Assembly: GCA_003152695.1 (NCBI GenBank)
Contig: PMAT01000051.1
Location: forward strand, 1-53,554
DNA from: Acidobacteriaceae bacterium
GTDB taxonomy: Bacteria; Acidobacteriota; Terriglobia; Terriglobales; Acidobacteriaceae
Direction of reading: 5' to 3'
Length of the DNA stretch: 53,554 nucleotides
Made by a program: the position numbers and the translations under genes
Notes under the pieces: generated by a model
What the model saw: only the letters and a program-made list of their open reading frames with translations
Told to the model about the DNA's origin: nothing
Databases searched by the model: none
Shown here: one piece after another, positions 30,952-53,554 of the stretch
Position numbering within the stretch: the stretch's first letter is position 1
Layout of the letters: every line of letters starts with the position of its first letter

Positions 30952-31097
30952 GTGTGTTTTGGGTGATTTTACCAAAGCCACAGTGTCGCTGGAAGCGCGA
31001 GTACCATTTCTGCGATGAAGTGGGTATGATCGCTGCCATGGAGGGTTGTTGCCCTGCTCCCAACATGCCCCCCGGGACTGAGGCGTTGAAGGTGCGA
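30952..31097. promoter_or_regulatory. Divergent promoter region
   Basis: About 146 bases between two divergent starts. GAAGG (31088-31092) is the ribosome-binding site of the plus-strand gene. Promoter boxes cannot be placed with confidence. Confidence 0.35.
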
Positions 31098-33914
31098 ATG
31101 CGACTTTGTGTATCAATCCTGTTTCTGCTGGCGAGTTCCGCGGCGTTTGGTTCTATCGGCTCCGATCAGCCAAAACAAGTGCAGTGTGGTGATGTCGCGG
31201 ACGGCGCTTGGCAGAACCCATGTCCCGCAATGGGCCCCACCCCGGCAGTCACCGCGGGCGGCCTGGACACCTCCGGAACATCTGGCGCGTACGTGGATGT
31301 CAAGTGGACGACGGAGCATTGCAGTTCTTCCGTAGTCGTTCTGATGCGGGATGGCAATCTGGCCCCAGAGCGTCAGGTCTATGGTGACGGCTTAGGAAGC
31401 GACGATTGTGGTGCGGGCTTCGCCAAGAATCATCTGGTCCACGTCGACCATCTCTCTCCCAGCTATCAGGGCACACCCGCAGCGGGATTCGAGTTTGGCA
31501 GCAAAGGCTCCCATTTCTTCTATGTGGCTTCCCAGGACAAAAACTCAGGCAAGTGGTCTACCAGCGGTGGCCCAGCTATCGCCAGTGGAGGCTGCAAGGG
31601 GACCTGCAAGCCTTTTGTATTCACCTCTCCAGTGCCCAACCTTTCGGGCCATCCCAACTGGGCCATCTGGACGTATGGACCGCAAACGGTTTATCAGAAA
31701 CACGACTTAATGATTGGCCTGCAGCAGGTGCTTACCAGCGGTCCCATATCCAAATCTGTATACATGGCCTGGTCTAGCGTCCAATTCGCTGAGTTGAAAG
31801 ACGCGGCAGGCAATGCGTGCCAATCTAACTGCATAGACGGGCAGGATGGAACGTTGTTTAACATGGACGTGACACTTCTATGTACCCAGCAATACGTCGA
31901 CAATCCTGCGACCGAATATGCCAACTATATGGTTGACGGCAGGCATCGCCGTGACTGGTGCCATGGCGGAAATTTCGAGACCATAACGGGCCAGTCCACG
32001 ATTCGCATCAGGACAAACTGTAACGGTCATGGCCCAGATACCTGCGGTCGCAATACTACTCCTGCCGGCCAGTATCAGGTGTCGGCAACTTTCCAGCTGT
32101 TGGACGAGAATAATTCCGGGGAGAGTGTCGGCCAGCCGGTTACGGTCAGCTATGTTTTCACGGTGAGGCCGTCCGCAACCTTTACCGTGACCCATCCATC
32201 CTGCTTGATCTCAGGAACCTGCCAAGCAATTCCATGCTACCTGGCGAGCAGCAAGATCTGCCCTTCCGGAAAAGATTACACTTGGGAGAATCGAATTCAG
32301 TACTGGGGACCGATTGCTTGCACCGGTGGAGCACAGACCTTCATGGCCCGTCTCGGCGGAGAGTACCTGAACAACGCAGGTTATTTCGAGAATGGTGTTT
32401 ATGGGGGGGCGAGTGCCAATTCGAATTGCTACAATTATGACAACGGCAGAAACTTCCTGGCATTGTCCGACTATGCCGACCTAAAGGGTTGGTCAACACC
32501 CCCAGGTGCGAGTACTCAACCAAACGGCCAGCGATACTCCAGCGCACAAACTTACTACCAACACTGCGCGCTGGTATGTCAGCAGTCCTACTGGAATTTT
32601 TTCGCGGGCGTGGGCGCGGCAGGTACGGTTTGGCCGGGCGGACTACTGCGGGAATGGAATCTCTTCCCAAATGGGGCAGCAATGTATTACTTCCGCTCCG
32701 GGGATGAAGTCGCAAAGCAAGCGGCCATCAACTTCGGAAGTTATCAGCCTCCCGGAGGCGGTAAAGCCGGAGACACGCTCTATCAGTATTACTTTGTGGA
32801 CGCCTATGGCGGCGCTCGTGTGGGGGCTTACATGCTGGATGCCGCTGTCGCAAAGTGGCAGGTTGTAGGCAGCCAAATGCCACAAGACGCTCTACAGACT
32901 AAACGCTATGTCGACTCTCTGTTGGGAATTCTGGACCAGAACGTCAATTACGATCCTGCGGGACGCCACTACGACACGCCGACGCATCCCCAAACCTATC
33001 CCATGGGACCGATCTGGCGCAGTTTCATGCTAGGGCTCGACATGGAGGCATTGATCGAATACTACGATTGGCAGGGTGCAGTAGGGCAGCAACAGGATCA
33101 GCGGATTCCGATTGCCATAAAATCCACTCTCGACTTCATGTGGTCTACATTATGGGCCGCAAAGAGTTCGGGTTTTAACGCTTTCTACTACAACGGAGTG
33201 GACATCCCACATAACAGCGCTAATGGCAATGATAGTTATGCCGAGTTGAATAATTTGGTTTGTGGCGCCTACGCATGGTATTGGAGTATGTCCGGCGACA
33301 GTACTTACCTCAATGAGGGCGATACCTGCTTCGACGCTGGTATTTCCCCTGCGGCATCTGTCTATTTCACGGGGAAGGATTTCGGCCAGATATTCAAGTG
33401 GACTTTTGACTATATAGGGTGGCGCACTCAGGCAGGATATATCCCTAGCACCTTTCCTGAAAAGAATAGGCCGTCTGGAGCCCAGGCTTCCTTTCCCGAT
33501 ACGGTGCCGCCGGTCCCACGGCCGCAGGTCGGGAACAGTACGACCGTCGATCCCTATACCGGCGTGACCCCTGTGACGGTCAATGGAACGTCGGTTACCA
33601 TTGCCTGGAGCACTTACGAGCAGTTGTCCTCAGCCGAGGTCCTTTATGGGTTCTCGAACTCGTATGGATCGATTGCGAAGGGCGCCAGTAAGCCCTGCAG
33701 TAGTGTTTCAGCCTGCAACATGGGGTGCGCGAGTACGGTCAATCCGAAGGTTTGCCGGCTCTCCTACGTCAACACAGTTGTCATGACAGGGTTACGACCG
33801 AACGCTACTTACCATTTTGCCACGAAGGGCGTTGACCATGCCGGCAACGTTGCCCAGACTAACCGTGCCGGTGGCACGGCGCGTGACTGGACATTCACTA
33901 CCGGATCCCAGTAA
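31098..33914 (+). CDS. Secreted alpha-toroid plus FN3 protein (candidate glycan depolymerase)
   Basis: About 938 residues: signal peptide (RLCVSILFLLASSAAFG), a beta-rich N-terminal region with many Cys (about 20-370), a helical domain (about 400-790) with repeated Trp/Tyr-rich helices such as YGGARVGAYMLDAAV, GPIWRSFMLGLDMEALIEYY and LVCGAYAWYWSMSGD, and a C-terminal fibronectin type III domain (about 830-938; TIAWSTYEQLSSAEVLYG, GLRPNATYHFATKGVD). The helical part resembles (alpha/alpha) toroid glycosidases or lyases in style, but no catalytic residues can be assigned. A homologue lies at 52020-53554 at the other side of the polysaccharide genes. The upstream open frame from 30954 is not used. 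Confidence 0.68.
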   Translation: MRLCVSILFLLASSAAFGSIGSDQPKQVQCGDVADGAWQNPCPAMGPTPAVTAGGLDTSGTSGAYVDVKWTTEHCSSSVVVLMRDGNLAPERQVYGDGLGSDDCGAGFAKNHLVHVDHLSPSYQGTPAAGFEFGSKGSHFFYVASQDKNSGKWSTSGGPAIASGGCKGTCKPFVFTSPVPNLSGHPNWAIWTYGPQTVYQKHDLMIGLQQVLTSGPISKSVYMAWSSVQFAELKDAAGNACQSNCIDGQDGTLFNMDVTLLCTQQYVDNPATEYANYMVDGRHRRDWCHGGNFETITGQSTIRIRTNCNGHGPDTCGRNTTPAGQYQVSATFQLLDENNSGESVGQPVTVSYVFTVRPSATFTVTHPSCLISGTCQAIPCYLASSKICPSGKDYTWENRIQYWGPIACTGGAQTFMARLGGEYLNNAGYFENGVYGGASANSNCYNYDNGRNFLALSDYADLKGWSTPPGASTQPNGQRYSSAQTYYQHCALVCQQSYWNFFAGVGAAGTVWPGGLLREWNLFPNGAAMYYFRSGDEVAKQAAINFGSYQPPGGGKAGDTLYQYYFVDAYGGARVGAYMLDAAVAKWQVVGSQMPQDALQTKRYVDSLLGILDQNVNYDPAGRHYDTPTHPQTYPMGPIWRSFMLGLDMEALIEYYDWQGAVGQQQDQRIPIAIKSTLDFMWSTLWAAKSSGFNAFYYNGVDIPHNSANGNDSYAELNNLVCGAYAWYWSMSGDSTYLNEGDTCFDAGISPAASVYFTGKDFGQIFKWTFDYIGWRTQAGYIPSTFPEKNRPSGAQASFPDTVPPVPRPQVGNSTTVDPYTGVTPVTVNGTSVTIAWSTYEQLSSAEVLYGFSNSYGSIAKGASKPCSSVSACNMGCASTVNPKVCRLSYVNTVVMTGLRPNATYHFATKGVDHAGNVAQTNRAGGTARDWTFTTGSQ

Positions 33915-44529: not shown

Positions 44530-44875
44530 AACCTCTTCGCACGCGTTGGAGCAATTTCAAGAACGAGCGTTGCCCATTTTGGGTTTCTTGGTTGCCAATA
44601 GCTGCCAAGTTGGACATTATCTCGTGGACACCGATCCTCGGAGATTGATATAGTTACCGCGCTCCTTTCGTGTGGCGGACACCCCAGTCTGACCATTCAA
44701 CCCCACTTTAGTGGGCCCGTAGCCGCACTCGCTATTGCGTAAAACGCAGAGGGCGGTCCAAAGGCGGTCGTCGCTTTGGATTCGGTTTTTCTCAGCCGAA
44801 GACTGGTCCACTGTGCGGGGACGAAAGTGCGTGTTCAGATTCTGTAAATCTTTCCAAGGAGCTGGAGAAAACTGT
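44530..44875 (+). other. Long leader region before sqdB
   Basis: About 346 bases without a gene. It contains the hairpin CCCAC-TTTA-GTGGG (44702-44715), an inverted CCAAAG...CTTTGG pair (about 44757-44780), and GGAG (44864-44867) eight bases before the ATG. The SQD1 frame is open to 44735 but the extra residues show no likeness. It may be a structured 5' leader or simply promoter space. Confidence 0.4.
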
Positions 44876-46078
44876 ATGCGTGTTTTTATCGCAGGGATGG
44901 ATGGGTACCTGGGTTGGTCGCTGGCGCAATATCTTGCGGCCCGGGGGCATCAAGTGGCGGGCGCGGATTTGTTTCTGCGGCGGCAATGGGTCGAAGAGAT
45001 GGGATCGTGCAGCGCAACCCCCATTGTGCCGATGAAGGAGCGGCTGGCGGCGCTCAAGGAGTCGCGTGGGCTGGAGGCAAAGTTTTGGGAAGCCGACCTT
45101 CGAGATTATTCGGTGGTGGAACGCATCTTTAAGGAGTTCCATCCGGACGCGGTGGTGCACCTGGGAGAATGCCCTTCAGCTCCTTACTCCATGGTAGATG
45201 TGCATCACGCTACGTTCGTGCAGGTAAACAACGTAGTTTCCACCTTCAACCTGATGTTCGCCATTCGCGACCTCCAGCCTGAGGCCCACCTGCTCAAGCT
45301 GGGCACTATGGGAGAATACGGTACGCCGAACGTCGACATTCCGGAAGGCTTCTTCGAGATTGAGTACCGCGGACGCCGCGACCGGATGCCGTTTCCGCGG
45401 CAGCCCGGCAGCTTTTATCACCTCTCCAAGGTGCACGGATCCAATAACATCATGTTCGCCTGCAAGGTGTGGAAGCTTCGCGCCACCGATGTGATGCAGG
45501 GGGTGGTGTTTGGCACCCGCATTGACGAGATGGGCAGCGACGAACGGCTGCTGACCCGGCTGGACTTTGACGAGTCGTTTGGCACTGCGATTAACCGCTT
45601 CTGTTGTCAGGCAGTGATTGGGCATCCCCTGACTCCGTTCGGCCGGGGACATCAAAAGCGGGGCTTCCTGCCGTTGCGTGACTCCATGCAGTGCCTGACC
45701 CTGGCGCTGGAAAATCCTGCCCAACCTGGTGAATACCGCGTTTTCAACCAGTTCGAAGAGGTTTACGACCTTACCGAACTGGCGGAAAAGGTCCGGCGAG
45801 TTGCGGAGCAGCTCGGGTTGAAGGTCGAGATTCACAACCTGGAAAACCCACGTAAGGAAATGGAAGAGCATTACTACAAGCCCGACCATCAGAATCTACG
45901 GGATTTGGGTTACAAGCCGACTCACGATGTCGAAGCTGAGATGAAGATCATGCTTGCCGACCTGATGAAGTACCGGGACCGGATCGAGGGGAAACGGGAA
46001 GTCTTGATCCCCAAGATTCGGTGGGACGGAACGAGCCACAAAGTAGAATATTTGAGTGGTCAGGCCGTGGGGGCGTAG
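44876..46078 (+). CDS. sqdB: UDP-sulfoquinovose synthase
   Basis: A 400-residue extended SDR of the SQD1/Agl3 type, which builds UDP-sulfoquinovose from UDP-glucose and sulfite with bound NAD+. The NAD loop is GMDGYLGWSL, the GECPSAPYSM stretch and TMGEYGTPNVDIPEG are family hallmarks, and the catalytic Tyr/Lys are in SFYHLSKVHGSNN. Length equals that of plant and archaeal members. ATG with GGAG eight bases upstream. No sulfolipid synthase is evident nearby; the adjacent GT2 and GT4 genes suggest a sulfonated glycan, or else a sulfolipid made elsewhere. Confidence 0.93.
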   Translation: MRVFIAGMDGYLGWSLAQYLAARGHQVAGADLFLRRQWVEEMGSCSATPIVPMKERLAALKESRGLEAKFWEADLRDYSVVERIFKEFHPDAVVHLGECPSAPYSMVDVHHATFVQVNNVVSTFNLMFAIRDLQPEAHLLKLGTMGEYGTPNVDIPEGFFEIEYRGRRDRMPFPRQPGSFYHLSKVHGSNNIMFACKVWKLRATDVMQGVVFGTRIDEMGSDERLLTRLDFDESFGTAINRFCCQAVIGHPLTPFGRGHQKRGFLPLRDSMQCLTLALENPAQPGEYRVFNQFEEVYDLTELAEKVRRVAEQLGLKVEIHNLENPRKEMEEHYYKPDHQNLRDLGYKPTHDVEAEMKIMLADLMKYRDRIEGKREVLIPKIRWDGTSHKVEYLSGQAVGA

Positions 46079-47576: not shown

Positions 47577-48527
47577 CTAAATAGCTCGTTGCGCCAGCCT
47601 GTCGGCACCGGGTGGAACCCTCGCTCCCATCGGGACAATGTCGCCGTCCACGAGCTGGTAATCCGGGAGCGACTGCACACCCGCGAGAGTGTCGGTTACG
47701 GTCCCGAACCGGTACGTCTTCAGCAGGGTCCGTAGTTTCTCCTCCGTCGTGGCGATATTGACGTAATATTTGAATCCCTTCATTCGCGGCAGGTCAAGAC
47801 GAGGTTGCTGGGGGTCGATTTCGCGCGGATGTATGTACGTCATAACCGGCCGGCCGGCACGATGATTCTGGCGGAAACCATACTTGATAATTGGCATCGA
47901 AAACAGCCGCAGGTAGCCGCCTCCGGAGAAGGGCACACGTCTTCCCAGGGCGCTCAGAATGGATAGGGGAAACACTGTCAGCGCTCCGGCGTCGGTGTGC
48001 AGCAGAATGGGATCGCGGGAGAATCCGTCGATACCGCCGTGATCGCGTGGCGCTGGCACGACGGAGACGTCCACGGTAATACCGTTTTCCCGCAGAATAG
48101 GATAGGCCCAAAAGCATTCCCGCTTCATGGAAAATCCCGGGGCGCGAAACGACACTACGGCCTGGCCGCTCACCTGACGCAAGACCTCAAGCGAGCGCTT
48201 CAGGTCCTGCGCGAACTCCTCCGGCGTCAGCGTGTACACCAGGCGATGGAAGTGGGTGTGAGAGCCGACCTCATGGCCTGCATTGCTAAGCCGCCGAATC
48301 AACTCGGGATGACGCTCGGCCACCCAGCCGACGGTAAGAAAGGTGGCGTGCGCCTTGGCTTCATCCAGCAGGCGCAAAATCACTTCCGTGTCTTTCACGA
48401 CGTGGCTGGCCGCCGAGTCCCAGGTCTTCGGGTCGTCGTACGGGGTGCTGGCCTCGCAGACGTGAAACCACTCTTCGAGGTCGATACAAAAGGCGTTCAG
48501 GATCTGGCCGGTTTTTTCGGAGGACAT
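47577..48527 (-). CDS. Polysaccharide deacetylase (NodB homology, DUF3473-type)
   Basis: A 316-residue protein with the NodB core: the first Asp motif FCIDLEEWFH, the metal site SHTHFHR (His-x3-His) and RAPGFSMKRE. The C-terminal piece YIHPREIDPQQPRLDLPRMK is typical of the deacetylases of exosortase-type polysaccharide loci. It lacks a signal peptide, so it may act in the cytoplasm on lipid-linked sugars or be exported otherwise. It starts two bases after the stop of the hybrid acyltransferase, so it belongs to the E1-hybrid operon; a free amino group made here would be a logical acceptor for that enzyme. Confidence 0.88.
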   Translation of the reverse strand: MSSEKTGQILNAFCIDLEEWFHVCEASTPYDDPKTWDSAASHVVKDTEVILRLLDEAKAHATFLTVGWVAERHPELIRRLSNAGHEVGSHTHFHRLVYTLTPEEFAQDLKRSLEVLRQVSGQAVVSFRAPGFSMKRECFWAYPILRENGITVDVSVVPAPRDHGGIDGFSRDPILLHTDAGALTVFPLSILSALGRRVPFSGGGYLRLFSMPIIKYGFRQNHRAGRPVMTYIHPREIDPQQPRLDLPRMKGFKYYVNIATTEEKLRTLLKTYRFGTVTDTLAGVQSLPDYQLVDGDIVPMGARVPPGADRLAQRAI

Positions 48528-48528
48528 A

Positions 48529-49662
48529 CTAGGCTTCCTCTGGCGGCTTACGGAAGGTCTTCACCACCTTCGCAGGGTTGCCCGCAACCATAGTGTACGG
48601 CGGCACATTGGTTATCACCACCGCTCCACTAGCGACGACCGCAGCCTTGCCGACCGTCACTCCCGGCATGATGACAGAATTCACGCCGATAAAACAGTGG
48701 TCCTCCAGACGCACGGGCTTCAATACCACCGGCATAATACCCGTCTCACGCAAGTGGTGTGGAGCTTTGATGTGGGTCATGATGATGGCTCGCGCGGTGA
48801 CCCGAACGTCGTTGCCGATGGTGATGTTTTCCGGGTAAGCGGTCTCGATGATGGCATTGGGATCGATGTAGCAATCCTTGCCGATCTTCACTCCGCGAAG
48901 CCGATGGAGTGGAAGGATGATGCCACGGGGCGCCCAGCGCACAAGGTTTCCCAGAAACCAGTTCCGCCACAGATAATTGAACGCCAAGCCAGCCAGGCTG
49001 CGGCCTCCTCGTTCAGCGGCCGACACTCGGGCATCGCGCAGAAAGTCGCGCTTCTTCCAATGCGTTGAACCAGCAGCGGGGGGTTGAGGCTTGGCTGCGT
49101 CAGGCGCCTCGGCAGGCGCAGGGCTGGAATCCTCCCTGGCGGCGGGAACCTCGGTCATCGCCGTTGCCGCGGCATTTCCAGCCTTCTGCCGCTCAAGATA
49201 GGCGAGTACATCCGACTCGCGAACCAGTTCGATTCCCCCAAAAGCGCTGGCATCGATAGCGTATTGCTCGATCAATCCCTGCGCTTTCCTGGAGATTCGC
49301 AGCCCCGGAGCCCCGGCCGCTGCGGCAGGCGGTGTGCCGTTACCGCGGGAGGCCGGAGTGCCGCTGGAGGCGAGCGCCGCCGGGGCCGAAGCCGTCCCGG
49401 CGGAAAGCGGCTGGGCCTGAATGCGCCCGATCAGCGCGCCTACGGGAATCTCGGCGCCGGTAGGATGCAGAATCTCCAGGTAGCCTTCTACTTCGGCCTC
49501 GACATCGACGATGGCTTTTGAGGTTTCGATGGAAACCACCACTTGCTTGGGCGCGACCTTTGCGCCGTGCTCCGCCTCCCATGCGGCTATTAGAACCACA
49601 TCGTCGTTGACGATTTCCCGGGGAATCCTGATCTCAGTGAACGAGTTCACGGACGAATTCAC
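48529..49662 (-). CDS. Hybrid lipoyl / E3-binding-like / hexapeptide acyltransferase
   Basis: About 377 residues in an order I do not know from any described enzyme. Residues about 8-85 are a lipoyl domain with lipoyl-lysine Lys49 in IETSKA and the usual hairpin IRIPREIVNDDVVLIAAWEA. A Pro/Ala/Gly linker (86-120) leads to an E3/E1-binding-like helical pair (121-157: RISRKAQGLIEQYAI to ESDVLAYLE). After a second Ala/Pro linker comes a left-handed beta-helix (about 260-377: IGKDCYIDPNAIIE, NITIGNDVRVTARAIIMTH, FIGVNSVIMPGVTVGKA, YTMVAGNPAKVVK) as in sugar O-acetyltransferases. The 2-oxoacid acyltransferase catalytic core of true E2 is missing. It overlaps the E1 gene. GTG 49650 is an alternative start. 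Confidence 0.9.
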   Translation of the reverse strand: MNSSVNSFTEIRIPREIVNDDVVLIAAWEAEHGAKVAPKQVVVSIETSKAIVDVEAEVEGYLEILHPTGAEIPVGALIGRIQAQPLSAGTASAPAALASSGTPASRGNGTPPAAAAGAPGLRISRKAQGLIEQYAIDASAFGGIELVRESDVLAYLERQKAGNAAATAMTEVPAAREDSSPAPAEAPDAAKPQPPAAGSTHWKKRDFLRDARVSAAERGGRSLAGLAFNYLWRNWFLGNLVRWAPRGIILPLHRLRGVKIGKDCYIDPNAIIETAYPENITIGNDVRVTARAIIMTHIKAPHHLRETGIMPVVLKPVRLEDHCFIGVNSVIMPGVTVGKAAVVASGAVVITNVPPYTMVAGNPAKVVKTFRKPPEEA

Positions 49663-51619
49663 TCGCCTTTCGCACGATCGAGCCGGTATTGGGCAGGCAT
49701 TGTTCCTCCAGCGGCCGGGAGGAAGGGATAGGACAAGATTCGGCCGTGAGCCGGCGGCAGCGCACGTTGAGGTCGCCAAAGCGCTCTGCTACTTGCGCCA
49801 GAATTTCGCTGCTCAGCGACACGAATCCCTGCCCCTCTTCGATCACCAGCAGCTTGCGAGTCATCGCCAGGCTGTCCTCTAAAATCCCGCAGTCGAAGGG
49901 ATATAGGCGCGTTGGCAGGAACAAGTCCACGAGCAACTCCTCTTCATCGAACAACCGCAGCATGGCCTCTTCCGCTTCCACGGACATGCCGCCGATGGCT
50001 ACCATCGTCAGGTCGGGCGCCAGGTGCGGCTTCAGGCGCGCGGTTGGGAAGGTCTCGCGCGTAAAAAGCAAGGAATATCCCGGCGGAGGCTCGGGGTCGG
50101 TAAAGCGCGTGTAAAGAATTTTATTCTCGATCACCAACGTGGGTGTGGCGATGCTGGCGAAAAGATCGCCATAGAGTTGCGCCGGACTATAGCGGTGATG
50201 CAGGCACAAGACGTTAGTTCCGGGCACACCGAGGAAGTGCTTCTCGAGGCTTTGGCTGTGGGTTGGACCGTAGCCGCGCTTGCCTCCCATCGGGGTACGC
50301 ACGATGGTCGGGACCTGGACCTGCCCGTTGTACATCCAACTGAACTTGGCTGCACCGTTGATCCACTGGTCGGCCGCCAGCGCCAGGAAGTCACCAAACA
50401 TGATTTCGGCCACCGGGATAAGCTTTGCCAACGCCATGCCGTTGGCAACTCCGACGATGGCGGCTTCGCTGATGGGAGTATTTCGTACGCGGCCGGGAAA
50501 GCGCGCGCTAAGTCCCAAGGTGCACTTGAAGGCTCCGCCATAGGGTGACTCGATGTCTTCACCGATCAGCACCAGCTGCTGGTGCTGCGCCAAACCTTCT
50601 TCCAGACCGCGGCGAACGGAGTCAACCACCCGCTCCCTGGGGAAGGGGCGCGCTTCCCAGACACTCGCGCCACCCATAACAGGCACACCTGGAGCAGTAT
50701 CGTGGCTGAAAGGAGCGGCTTCGGCTTCGGCCACCGCCTCTTCAATCAATTGCTCGACCTCGCGGGCCATCTCCTGGAAGCGCGGGTCCGACGCGTATTG
50801 CTCGGCAAGCGTGGCGATGGGATCGCGCTCCCAGTAGGGCGCGACCTCGCTCTCCGGCCGGTTGTCGTCGCCCTTGGAGTGGGCCATCAATCGGTAGGTA
50901 TCGACCTGGTGGAATCGCGGCCTCGACGTCCTTCTGACCAGGTCCGCGCTGTCGGCTATGGCACTGAGGAGGGCGGGCCAGTTCCAGGTGTCGCTGTAGG
51001 CGGTTTCGATTCCGAAGGCCTCCGCCCGCGCGCGGATGCCTCCAGCCAGGGTCTGCGACTGGTGGGTCGATTGTGCGTAAAGATTGTTTTCGCAGACAAA
51101 CAGCACCGGCAGCTCCCACTTGGAGGCGATGTTCATCGCCTCATACACAGCGCCTTCTCCCAAGGTACCATCGCCGAGAAAGGCAACCGTGATACCGTTC
51201 GTGGCTTTGACCTTCTGGCTGTAGGCGAGTCCTGCGCAAACCGGCACAATCGAGCCTTGCACCCCGTTTGAGTAGAAGGTCCCCTGGTGCAAGTGCTGAC
51301 TGCCGCCACGTCCACCACAAACCCCAATGGACTTGCCCATGATTTCGCCGATCAGGCCAACCAGGTTCTGCCGGTAGGCGAGGAAATGGCCGTGACAACG
51401 GTGGTTGGAAAAGACATTATCCTGCGGGTGCAAGGCCCGGGCAACCGCGATGCCGACGAACTCCTGGCCGATGCAGGTATGCACCGTGCCAAATAGTTTG
51501 CCCTGCTTGAACAGTTCCAGCAGCCGTTGCTCGGTTTTGCGAATCAGCCAGCCCAGACGAATGACTTCCGCGTATTGCTCCAGCGAATCGGTCGAGGCTG
51601 GCTGAGTTTTGGATGTCAT
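49634..51619 (-). CDS. Fused alpha-beta E1 component of a 2-oxoacid dehydrogenase
   Basis: About 661 residues. The alpha half (1-330) has the entry segment SNHRCHGHFLAY, GGRGGSQHL and the thiamine diphosphate motif GDGTLGEGAVYEAMN to FVCENN (GDG at 149-151, NN near 178). The beta half (about 340-660) has LIGEDIESPYGGAFK, NTPISEAAIVGVANGMAL, RTPMGGKRGYGPTHSQSLEK and VIEEGQGF. Such enzymes decarboxylate a 2-oxo acid and acylate a lipoyl domain; the natural partner is the lipoyl domain of the gene overlapping its 3' end. No standard E2 or dihydrolipoamide dehydrogenase is present in the window. Substrate (pyruvate, branched-chain or other) not readable. ATG 51619 preferred to TTG 51664. Confidence 0.93.
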   Translation of the reverse strand: MTSKTQPASTDSLEQYAEVIRLGWLIRKTEQRLLELFKQGKLFGTVHTCIGQEFVGIAVARALHPQDNVFSNHRCHGHFLAYRQNLVGLIGEIMGKSIGVCGGRGGSQHLHQGTFYSNGVQGSIVPVCAGLAYSQKVKATNGITVAFLGDGTLGEGAVYEAMNIASKWELPVLFVCENNLYAQSTHQSQTLAGGIRARAEAFGIETAYSDTWNWPALLSAIADSADLVRRTSRPRFHQVDTYRLMAHSKGDDNRPESEVAPYWERDPIATLAEQYASDPRFQEMAREVEQLIEEAVAEAEAAPFSHDTAPGVPVMGGASVWEARPFPRERVVDSVRRGLEEGLAQHQQLVLIGEDIESPYGGAFKCTLGLSARFPGRVRNTPISEAAIVGVANGMALAKLIPVAEIMFGDFLALAADQWINGAAKFSWMYNGQVQVPTIVRTPMGGKRGYGPTHSQSLEKHFLGVPGTNVLCLHHRYSPAQLYGDLFASIATPTLVIENKILYTRFTDPEPPPGYSLLFTRETFPTARLKPHLAPDLTMVAIGGMSVEAEEAMLRLFDEEELLVDLFLPTRLYPFDCGILEDSLAMTRKLLVIEEGQGFVSLSSEILAQVAERFGDLNVRCRRLTAESCPIPSSRPLEEQCLPNTGSIVRKASEFVRELVH

Positions 51620-52019
51620 GAGAAGACCGGTTAGTAAGGGCAGTTTACCCTGATTATTACTCAAGCCGCAATACAGCCTACGCGTCCAGCAGATGGGTCA
51701 CATTTTCAACTCAAGCTTGCACGGAGCAGCGTCCGATGCTACGGAGGTTGGAGCAGTTTCTGCCATGTCTTGGCCGGTTGGCCGGAGCAGCCACAGCGAC
51801 TGCGAACACAGTGCTGGTTCATGGCTGGGAAAAACGTCTGTCCTGCAAGCACTCGTACGGCACGTTTCCTTGCGCATCCGCTCAGATAGTTCCCGCCGGT
51901 TTGCTTTTCGATTCTGAAGTGCGGGCGCGGTTCGAAGTTGACCAGGATCTCGATTCGTCTTCTCCGAACAGCGCCCGTTTGCCTGGCTGCTGGCAGTTGC
52001 GCCTGGCTGCTTTGCGTCC
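51620..52019. other. Intergenic region upstream of the E1 gene
   Basis: About 400 bases between two minus-strand genes. Open frames on the plus strand show no family likeness. It may hold the promoter of the E1 operon; TTGAGTAATAAT (51655-51666, minus strand) is AT-rich and could carry part of it. Confidence 0.35.
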
Positions 52020-53554
52020 TTACGGCGCAGTGGTTAAGGTTTGATCCGCCAGCGCCGCTATATTTTCTGCGGCGTCTACCGAAATCACTTGATAGTGGTA
52101 CAGAGTTGCGGGTAACAGCCCGATCAAGGTAACACTGTGACTCGTCACCAGCGATGGATTTAGTGACGAGGTCGAACCGTAACCCGACGTGATACCGTAC
52201 TTCACCTGGGTCGTGGCTGGCTCATAGGTGTTCCAAGTGATCGTCGCGCTGGTCGCAGCCGGAATGACCGTGACCCTGGTGTAGGCACCGCCTCCCATGA
52301 TCGGCGGCTCTGTGTCCGCATAAGGCCCACTGTACGGGTTGGCGCTGGGCATGACGGTTAGAACAGCATTAGGCTCGCTGCGTAGCCGCACATAATCAAA
52401 TGTCCATTGGTATATCTGGCTGTACTCCTTGCCACTCCAACCGGGGCTACCCAGGGGATCAAGCACATGTTGAAAAGCTAGATCTCCCCGACTCAGAGCG
52501 TTGGCGTCACCGGTCTTGCTCCAGTACCAAGCATAGGCGGTTGCTACCAGGCCATTCAAATCGGTCCAATCGATACTGTCGTTGCCTCCATGATAGAAGT
52601 CGTTACTGGGCAAGGAGGTGTTGTCGTAGGCAAACGAGAAATGGGTCGGGTTCCAGATTGTCCACAACGCATCCAGCGCTTGCTTGATCGCCACCGGAAT
52701 CCGGTTGTCCACTACGCCTCGGGAAGCGTTCCACTCATAGTAGTTAATGAGTGTCTGCATGGCGATTCCAACCATGAACGGGTGCACGGTATTGACGCCG
52801 CCGCCGTTGGCTACCTGGTCAAGGTCTCCCAACAACTTGTTGATCCCAATGTCCGTCAAAGGGCTGTGCGGATTGCCCAACATTTCCGATGCGATGCGGT
52901 TGTTGTTCATGTAGGAAGTTTCGCGGATAAGGTACCAATCCACCCAACCGCCATAGTTGGAACCGGAACCGCTGTTGGCCATTAGGAGCACAGCGTTTTT
53001 CATGTCCCCATTTCTGGTCCTGAAGTAGTTCATCGCCATGCCATAGGCAAACTGGCTATAGAGGGCAAATGCTCCATTATTGTGAAGGGCATACTGGCCA
53101 TATGGGTCGAGGTCGGTCAGGGCGCAGTGTTGCCACAAGGCGTGATTCGGCTGGCCTAGTTGGTTGGCTGTGTAGTCGTCTACCTGTTGGTATACTCGCC
53201 CTCCGTCATAGAACCAAGTCTCCTCTTGCCAACCCCAGCCCGTCAGAAATACGCCGGCTGCATTTCTGGAGTCGCGTGAGATGCCATTATGGTCGTCGCA
53301 CCATTTGTGGCCGAGGGTGACCATCTGCGTCTCCCAGTTGGCCCTGCCGGGAATCGGCGGGAATGCCGTGGGAGGGGTCGCGCCGAATGTGGGAGCAGCG
53401 ACGACATTGAACTGGTAGGTTCCGGTCGTAGGCACTACGCCGTTGATGTAGGTGAACGTCACCTGATAGGGGCCTGGAACGGTGTTGGCCGAGCTGCGTA
53501 GCCGGAAGTTTGCACCCGGCATCACATTGTGGCTGGTCACTGCTGTCCGGTTAA
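52020..53554 (-). CDS. Secreted alpha-toroid plus FN3 protein, partial
   Basis: The frame is open to the right edge, so the N-terminus and signal peptide are outside the window. Visible: the end of a beta-rich domain (PYQVTFTYINGVVPTTGTYQ), a helical domain with GWGWQEETWFYDGGRVYQQ, NNGAFALYSQFAYGMAMNYF and LNGLVATAYAWYWSKTGD to YSQIYQWTFDYVRLR, and a C-terminal FN3 domain (ATITWNTYEPATTQVKYGI, GLLPATLYHYQVISVDAAEN). It is homologous along this length to the gene at 31098-33914. Probably a secreted enzyme or matrix protein for the polysaccharide. Confidence 0.7.
   Translation of the reverse strand, partial: NRTAVTSHNVMPGANFRLRSSANTVPGPYQVTFTYINGVVPTTGTYQFNVVAAPTFGATPPTAFPPIPGRANWETQMVTLGHKWCDDHNGISRDSRNAAGVFLTGWGWQEETWFYDGGRVYQQVDDYTANQLGQPNHALWQHCALTDLDPYGQYALHNNGAFALYSQFAYGMAMNYFRTRNGDMKNAVLLMANSGSGSNYGGWVDWYLIRETSYMNNNRIASEMLGNPHSPLTDIGINKLLGDLDQVANGGGVNTVHPFMVGIAMQTLINYYEWNASRGVVDNRIPVAIKQALDALWTIWNPTHFSFAYDNTSLPSNDFYHGGNDSIDWTDLNGLVATAYAWYWSKTGDANALSRGDLAFQHVLDPLGSPGWSGKEYSQIYQWTFDYVRLRSEPNAVLTVMPSANPYSGPYADTEPPIMGGGAYTRVTVIPAATSATITWNTYEPATTQVKYGITSGYGSTSSLNPSLVTSHSVTLIGLLPATLYHYQVISVDAAENIAALADQTLTTAP

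Follow-up and report, generated by a model that had tools for sequence, protein, structure and literature searches.

A conserved cassette of a RenH-like E1, a fused lipoyl and left-handed beta-helix protein and a deacetylase: a candidate acyl-exchange system for polysaccharide precursors

Contig PMAT01000051.1 of an Acidobacteriaceae bacterium (assembly GCA_003152695.1; the whole stretch of 53,554 nucleotides is referred to as the window) carries on its minus strand three consecutive genes that encode a fused alpha-beta E1 enzyme, a hybrid protein that joins a lipoyl domain to a left-handed beta-helix (LbH) acyltransferase domain, and a polysaccharide deacetylase. On balance, we favor reading the three genes as a cassette that would exchange an acyl group on a polysaccharide precursor, with the lipoyl arm of the hybrid serving as the acyl donor. 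This reading builds on what was observed directly, namely the gene content and order, their conservation, the domain structure of the products, the clade of the E1, and one conserved Lys and one conserved His in the hybrid. A preliminary description of the first two genes had proposed that the acyl group may pass from lipoyl-lysine straight to a sugar.

The E1 reading frame occupies 49634-51664, with a likely ATG at 51619 (661 codons; 676 when counted from a TTG at 51664), and contains three Pfam E1 domains in a single frame (E1_dh, 1.2e-47; Transket_pyr, 8.2e-24; Transketolase_C, 1.7e-11). It ends within the opening codons of the hybrid gene, giving an overlap of 17 nt, so that the fused, overlapping E1 of the preliminary description is borne out. 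The hybrid stop codon (48529-48531) is separated by 1 nt from the ATG of the deacetylase gene, which lies just beyond the 48529-51619 segment treated in that description. Profile searches matched Biotin_lipoyl (9.8e-9) and Hexapep (3e-11) in the hybrid, and no Pfam match to the 2-oxoacid_dh core (PF00198) was obtained in it or in the three homologs scanned (L020, L021, and L026), which agrees with the claim that lipoyl and LbH parts share one polypeptide devoid of an E2 core. The architecture had been thought undescribed, and among the matches listed from literature titles and abstracts there was no lipoyl-LbH fusion.

When 84,980 species genomes were scanned with the hybrid as query, 63 pattern matches were obtained and at least 11 loci encoding a relative of the hybrid were identified, nine in Planctomycetota and two in Verrucomicrobiota, all in metagenome-assembled genomes; because the scan was limited to a pattern, the count is a lower bound. 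Nine of the relatives are complete, running from residues 1-6 to 366-373, with 49-54% identity over the best segment, and the other two (L028 and L029) are truncated at the ends of their contigs. An E1 gene lies upstream in all nine loci with room for one, and a CE4/DUF3473 deacetylase gene lies downstream in 10 of 10 loci, the contig of L026 ending too soon. The encoded proteins are 57-64% (E1s) and 51-63% (deacetylases) identical to those of the window, and in the window, L020, and L022 the cassette genes either overlap or directly adjoin one another. Across the hybrid gene, two close pairs (L024/L025, nonsynonymous divergence dN 0.109 and synonymous divergence dS 0.731; L023/L030, dN 0.083 and dS 0.579) gave a dN/dS of about 0.15, indicating purifying selection on both domains. 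An assembly artifact joining two genes, one outcome against which the preliminary description had guarded, is ruled out by this conserved architecture in at least 11 other loci, nine of them with full-length relatives, together with the selection on both domains; lipoyl and LbH genes occurring separately and unlinked to E1, another such outcome, are likewise not what the nine E1-linked loci display. Closer to the window, the fusion was found in no genome but its own among 150 relatives (10 with a match, its own included), 399 genomes of the class (6 with a match, its own included), and 396 genomes of the phylum (a match in its own only); these sets overlap, and up to 13, 4, and 4 candidates per genome, respectively, were scored. 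The listed matches outside the host genome cover the LbH part only or the lipoyl part only, and the three matches in plasmid records cover LbH only.

Judged by its sequence, the E1 stands apart from ordinary 2-oxo acid dehydrogenases and groups with RenH, away from the pyruvate and branched-chain E1s. RenH, from the renieramycin cluster, is its best annotated relative in plasmid records (46% identity over 94%), and renH overlaps renI, which encodes a protein with lipoyl and 2-oxoacid_dh domains. The next-best relatives are actinobacterial (L032, L033, and L034); L033 is annotated with polyketide synthase and condensation-domain genes, an acyl carrier protein (ACP), E1 alpha, E1 beta, and E2, as in a nonribosomal peptide/polyketide cluster. 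In a tree of 50 E1s, ten cassette E1s, RenH, L032-L034, and five others (19 in total) split from 31 canonical E1s with 100% support in the Shimodaira-Hasegawa-like approximate likelihood ratio test (SH-aLRT); the canonical set, a non-random sample, comprised 25 top search matches and six plasmid or phage records, and the tree was built from sequences other than NapB and QncN, with NapB, NapD, and QncN also outside the sequence comparisons. The E1s linked to hybrids require two label changes in this tree, with that of L026 placed apart, and a single origin is nevertheless possible. With its position in the tree, and with no E2 core in the hybrid, an ordinary pyruvate or branched-chain 2-oxo acid dehydrogenase is ruled out. 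As a separate observation, RenH/RenI-like E1 and lipoyl-E2 genes occur together in the unannotated actinobacterial stretches L032 and L034, with an open reading frame resembling ketoacyl-ACP synthase III upstream in L032 (by eye); both stretches may belong to uncharacterized natural-product pathways that use this unit.

The clade is also marked by residues around the presumed active site. Arg463, Gly464, Tyr465, and Thr468, an Arg-Gly-Tyr-x-x-Thr motif that precedes His469 (676-residue numbering), which we take to be the E1 active-site His, occur in 19 of 19 clade E1s, and Thr468 in none of the 31 canonical ones. Lys264 is found in all 19 clade E1s versus 1 of 31, Gln123 in all 19 versus 0 of 28 (all Met), and Gln136 in all 19 versus 0 of 31 (Val in 28). 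The two Gln positions presumably line the site of thiamine diphosphate (ThDP), as in pyruvate dehydrogenase (PDH) structures, and by analogy would fit a polyol donor. Given the shared tetrahydroisoquinoline pathway, RenH presumably belongs with NapB/NapD, and a 2012 PNAS study of NapB/NapD reportedly described a glycolyl-lipoyl intermediate. According to two reports, homologs of NapB/NapD in the dnacin pathway support a hydroxyethyl unit that comes from xylulose 5-phosphate and is passed to the ACP DinT (PMC7570522), and ketose phosphates are precursors of naphthyridinomycin, with renieramycin counted among the tetrahydroisoquinolines (PMC9268379). The window E1 groups with RenH and the L033 enzyme rather than with pyruvate or branched-chain E1s, and so a ketose phosphate is the likely origin of the acyl group, as a two-carbon unit. 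The proposal that E1 specificity sets the acyl group is thereby narrowed to this unit, in place of any 2-oxo-acid acyl.

The N-terminal block of the hybrid was modeled by AF2 as a lipoyl domain with a predicted local distance difference test score (pLDDT) of 84-97, and its Foldseek matches are lipoyl domains. The Lys of its IETSKA motif is a Lys in 10 of 10 alignment rows that contain the domain and is the predicted lipoylation site, as the modifiable Lys of a Pfam lipoyl domain. The residue named in the preliminary description therefore stands, with its number changed: it is Lys45 counted from the GTG at 49650, Lys49 apparently having been counted from a GTG at 49662. The loop between the first two strands of the lipoyl domain is known to contact E1 and is a determinant of its recognition (PMC6270654). 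In the AF2 model of the hybrid this loop comprises residues 9-17, and a motif scan, which counted only domains fitting its pattern, found Asn-Asp (ND) at residues 15-16 in 18 of 18 lipoyl partners of clade E1s versus 0 of 18 canonical lipoyl domains. A further partner, L075, missed by the scan owing to its ETDK motif and so outside the 18, likewise has NNNDD in its loop. At the level of sequence, then, the lipoyl loop carries an ND signature that matches the E1 clade. Beyond the lipoyl domain, the claimed E3-binding-like segment holds up in part: AF2 placed confident helices at residues 121-129 and 145-165, while the segment is degenerate and, by eye, devoid of the usual Gly-rich loop, and Pfam E3_binding (PF02817) gave no match in the hybrid and a weak one in the related E2 L074 (17.5 bits versus a cut-off of 23.7). 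The domain-profile check suggested in the preliminary description thus recovered the lipoyl and hexapeptide parts and left E3_binding unmatched.

The LbH part was modeled poorly in the full-length protein (pLDDT about 50), probably owing to the few alignment rows that cover it. When residues 196-373 were modeled with 24 rows, the mean pLDDT rose to 84.5. This model matches maltose, galactoside, and sugar N-acyltransferases, with a Foldseek E-value of 3.1e-9 to 4isx_B and, among many ties, VIA Z-scores of 17.0 to QdtC (3fs8_A; 111 residues, 3.5 Å) and 16.2 to 3igj_A (154 residues, 3.1 Å). As a predicted fold, it is compatible with O- or N-acylation and with a lipoyl or coenzyme A (CoA) donor, and cannot discriminate among them. 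His293 is invariant in 12 of 12 hybrids and in 24 of 24 LbH rows, fused or unfused, so the loss of a catalytic-type His that might have undone the proposal did not occur; we take its role to be catalytic by analogy with galactoside and Vat acetyltransferases.

Relatives of the E1 with other architectures place the hybrid in a wider context. The lipoyl-part matches in genomes G001 and G142 adjoin clade E1s. In the distant relative G142 (L072:9132-10754, minus strand), the clade E1 overlaps a second type of lipoyl-LbH fusion of 540 residues. It has a lipoyl domain and a segment resembling a peripheral-subunit-binding domain (by eye), and its LbH is larger, of a different kind, and has a His of its own (His338). 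The E1 of G142 grouped with RenH with a support of 92, not starred, and the LbH tree left the G142 LbH unplaced on a very long branch; a separate origin of this fusion is likely, not proven. G001, G150, G300, and G117 instead pair a clade E1 with a lipoyl protein that has an E2 core, and in G150 and G300 the lipoyl-E2 gene is followed by a gene for a phosphopantetheinyl transferase whose N-terminal stretch resembles an ACP by eye (no Pfam match there). The row in G150 consists of E1, lipoyl-E2, phosphopantetheinyl transferase protein, and a separate LbH gene amid open reading frames resembling glycosyltransferases (by eye). Related ARRANGEMENTS thus bring E1/lipoyl and LbH together in three ways: in a fusion of the window type, in one of the G142 type, or as neighbors. 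The simplest account of these sequences has the LbH consuming the acyl group. In G150, where the E2 core is retained, the acyl group may travel from lipoyl to E2 to ACP to LbH, and in the fusion forms it can pass from lipoyl to LbH directly.

The third gene product matches Polysacc_deac_1 (1.2e-21) and DUF3473, and Asp16, His90, and His94, which we take to be the CE4 metal site, are kept in 11 of 11 rows. The cassette protein is the one strong match to this family in the host genome. By eye its N-terminus has no signal-like stretch, a hint that the substrate may be a cytosolic precursor. As the third conserved gene, the deacetylase may point to an exposed amine as the acyl acceptor.

Taken in order, the proposed reaction would begin with the deacetylase, which would remove an N-acetyl group from the precursor. 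The E1, as a ThDP enzyme of the two-component transketolase type, would use a ketose phosphate as the source of a two-carbon dihydroxyethyl unit and reductively acylate the lipoyl arm on Lys45 of the hybrid, yielding a glycolyl thioester. By swinging, this arm would reach the LbH active site located on the same chain. There, His293 would activate a sugar hydroxyl or amine to accept the acyl group from the lipoyl thioester in a direct step, and the transfer would involve neither an E2 core nor CoA or ACP. The freed amine would be the most economical acceptor, amounting to an exchange of N-acetyl for N-glycolyl, and the dihydrolipoyl group would be reoxidized by the cellular dihydrolipoyl dehydrogenase (E3). 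We are rather confident that the E1 loads the lipoyl arm, and the LbH probably uses the acyl-lipoyl directly. The chances that glycolyl is the transferred group are about even, and the amine exposed by the deacetylase is put forward as acceptor only tentatively. The fully specified version, in which the hybrid would be the first lipoyl-fueled glycan acyltransferase, re-acylating a deacetylated N-acetyl sugar with ketose-phosphate-derived glycolyl straight from its fused lipoyl arm, is doubtful as it stands.

Of the other accounts, the closest retains the relay and supplies it from pyruvate or another 2-oxo acid, so that acetyl or an ordinary acyl group moves from lipoyl to sugar. Pfam and NCBIfam do place the enzyme in the E1_dh/PDH superfamily, with PDH_E1_alph_y as best match at 217.8 bits, and to our knowledge the donor is established for only a few members of the clade; the same score lies far below the cut-off of 393.85, and the fully supported split from the 31 canonical E1s, with its altered conserved residues, leads us to consider a 2-oxo acid donor unlikely. 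A shade less likely still is an LbH that uses acetyl-CoA, with the lipoyl domain and E1 acting as a tethered local supply, a scaffold, or an acyl source for another enzyme. The nearest solved folds belong to acetyl-CoA enzymes, and LbH relatives that have no lipoyl domain exist at 34-44% identity. Such an arrangement sits poorly with the strict linkage to E1 (nine of nine loci), with the second lipoyl-LbH protein beside a clade E1 in G142, and with the host genome itself, whose sole 2-oxoacid_dh core is on another contig (C45), so that acyl-lipoyl formed locally has no adjacent E2 core through which to reach CoA. The E1 could alternatively carboligate in the manner of a transketolase and build a branched or elongated sugar, with lipoyl serving as a side route or a regulatory one. 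Carboligation is within the reach of ThDP enzymes of this superfamily, and a UDP-sulfoquinovose synthase-like gene hints that the locus may make unusual sugars, but pure carboligation needs neither the lipoyl Lys nor the ND loop conserved alongside the E1, and we regard it as quite improbable. Most improbable by far is that the gene is decayed or chimeric and does not function as a whole: the fusion is rare in its own phylum (1 of 396 genomes, its own), yet its architecture is conserved in loci of two phyla under purifying selection on both domains.

Several points weigh against the acyl-exchange reading itself. Its reaction steps are predictions from sequences and modeled structures. The ketose donor hangs on a chain that runs from 46% identity to RenH, through the pathway kinship of RenH and NapB/NapD, to the 2012 study of NapB/NapD, and substrate switching within the E1 clade is possible. 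Four clade relatives retain an E2 core, so the clade as a whole needs no LbH, and among genomes near that of the window the window-type hybrid was found once. Because the general fold of the LbH and its GNPAKVVK-type end resemble those of CoA-dependent enzymes, the domain may still use CoA. The subunit-binding segment, through which E3 would be recruited, is degenerate. As for the deacetylase, its N-deacetylase activity is assumed, and it scored 257.3 bits against the XrtA-system family TIGR03006, below the cut-off of 276.2.

The window is a polysaccharide locus by its neighboring gene families, as first proposed: profile searches with Pfam and NCBIfam found glycosyltransferases, a Polysacc_synt (flippase-like) protein, and a methyltransferase around the cassette, and another protein weakly resembles an exosortase-associated O-glycosylation ligase (65 bits versus a cut-off of 188). 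Among ten flanking proteins tested in other loci, seven are sugar-related (glycosyltransferases, epimerases, a UDP-glucose dehydrogenase-type protein, and a heparinase-type protein), one is a transporter, one a helicase, and one had no match; a sugar setting thus appears common across cassette loci, though not established for each. The host genome has a single copy of the hybrid and encodes LipA, LipB, and dihydrolipoyl dehydrogenase. Coordinates of the features are listed below.

Features of the cassette in the window and of related loci (locus handle given for features elsewhere)
Feature	Position	Strand	Basis
Fused alpha-beta E1 (ThDP enzyme), RenH-like	49634..51619	minus	Pfam/NCBIfam, tree, signatures
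Hybrid lipoyl/LbH protein, 373 residues, GTG start	48529..49650	minus	Open reading frame, Pfam, homolog alignment
Polysaccharide deacetylase (CE4 + DUF3473), third cassette gene	47577..48527	minus	Pfam, NCBIfam, alignment
E1 signature RTPMGGKRGYGPTHSQSLEK around presumed active-site His	50240..50299	minus	Clade alignment
Lipoyl domain, residues 5-80, beta1-beta2 loop with VNDD	49411..49638	minus	Pfam, AF2, Foldseek
Predicted lipoyl-lysine codon, Lys45 in IETSKA	49516..49518	minus	Open reading frame, homolog alignment
Peripheral-subunit-binding-like helix pair, residues ~117-152	49195..49302	minus	Alignment, AF2 helices
Conserved helices preceding LbH, NYLWRNWFLGNLVRWAPRG, amphipathic by eye	48898..49044	minus	Alignment, helices in models
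LbH (hexapeptide) acyltransferase domain, residues 252-373	48532..48897	minus	Pfam, AF2, Foldseek/VIA
His293 codon (MTH-IKAP), catalytic-type His of LbH acyltransferases	48772..48774	minus	Alignment
Phosphopantetheinyl transferase with ACP-like stretch, directly after lipoyl-E2	L073:11485-12276	plus	Pfam, by eye
Phosphopantetheinyl transferase with ACP-like stretch, directly after lipoyl-E2	L074:14364-15206	minus	Pfam, by eye

Other genes of the window and host were recorded alongside. The UDP-sulfoquinovose synthase-like gene of the locus (44735-46078, plus strand; NF041015, 554.6 bits, cut-off 575) makes sulfoquinovose a possible constituent of its glycan. An FkbH-domain protein (TIGR01686; 21032-22885, plus strand), of a family presumably associated with glyceryl-ACP formation, is a candidate source of a further unusual acyl group. 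Two large proteins that flank glycosyltransferase genes (30954-33914, plus strand; 52020-53552, minus strand) match a purple-acid-phosphatase N-terminal domain, the latter slightly below cut-off. The deacetylase and some glycosyltransferases of the window resemble XrtA-system families, and the genome carries an exosortase gene outside the window, at G000:C122:8136-8897. FemAB (TIGR03019), which may accompany deacetylases of this kind in XrtA loci, was not matched anywhere in the genome; as a passage of PMC1569441 makes no mention of FemAB, this absence was given no weight. Among the records searched, a phage-labeled Acinetobacter record (L040) with lipA and an acetoin dehydrogenase operon looks like DNA of the phage host.

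The nearest analogs of the cassette are the two-component transketolases NapB/NapD and QncN/QncL, and presumably RenH/RenI, through the grouping of its E1 with RenH; a presumed glycolyl-lipoyl intermediate, as reportedly described for NapB/NapD, would be a further likeness. RenI has the same ND loop in its lipoyl domain as the hybrid, and renH and renI overlap as the E1 and hybrid genes do, but RenI has a 2-oxoacid_dh core where the hybrid has an LbH. The NapB/NapD kind is reported to pass its group to an ACP (PMC7570522), whereas Pfam and NCBIfam gave no ACP match among the cassette neighbors searched. Unlike NapB/NapD, the cassette lies in a polysaccharide locus with a deacetylase. From these sequences, the cassette is probably a two-component transketolase whose E2 core has been exchanged for a sugar acyltransferase. 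The E2 proteins of 2-oxo acid dehydrogenase complexes share with the hybrid the succession of lipoyl domain, linker, and subunit-binding-like helices, but the hybrid differs from them in having neither a 2-oxoacid_dh core nor a Pfam E3_binding match. The C-terminal domain shares its fold and His with maltose and galactoside acetyltransferases, QdtC, AntD, and WlbB; LbH sugar O- and N-acyltransferases use free acyl-CoA, whereas the hybrid has a built-in lipoyl carrier domain. LpxA and LpxD are LbH enzymes with a protein-bound thioester donor, acyl-ACP, and illustrate that an LbH site can be supplied by a carrier domain, although their carrier is a separate phosphopantetheine ACP rather than a fused lipoyl domain. 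In Nod factor synthesis (NodB/NodA/NodF), an amine is exposed by a deacetylase and then acylated by an acyltransferase supplied from a carrier; NodA, however, is not an LbH protein and uses acyl-ACP, where the hybrid combines LbH with lipoyl.

If the reading is true, lipoyl arms would donate acyl groups straight to glycans, beyond CoA, ACP, or H-protein chemistry, and sugar acylation would have a third class of carrier-bound donor besides CoA and ACP. The decoration of polysaccharides would become linked to the pentose-phosphate pool. For N-glycolyl sugars, which oxygenases produce elsewhere, there would be an oxygen-independent, oxygenase-free route. The relatives, with a lipoyl-E2 alone, a lipoyl-E2 with a phosphopantetheinyl transferase/ACP-like protein, or a lipoyl-LbH fusion, would then offer a testable picture of a metabolic complex rewired for surface-sugar chemistry.

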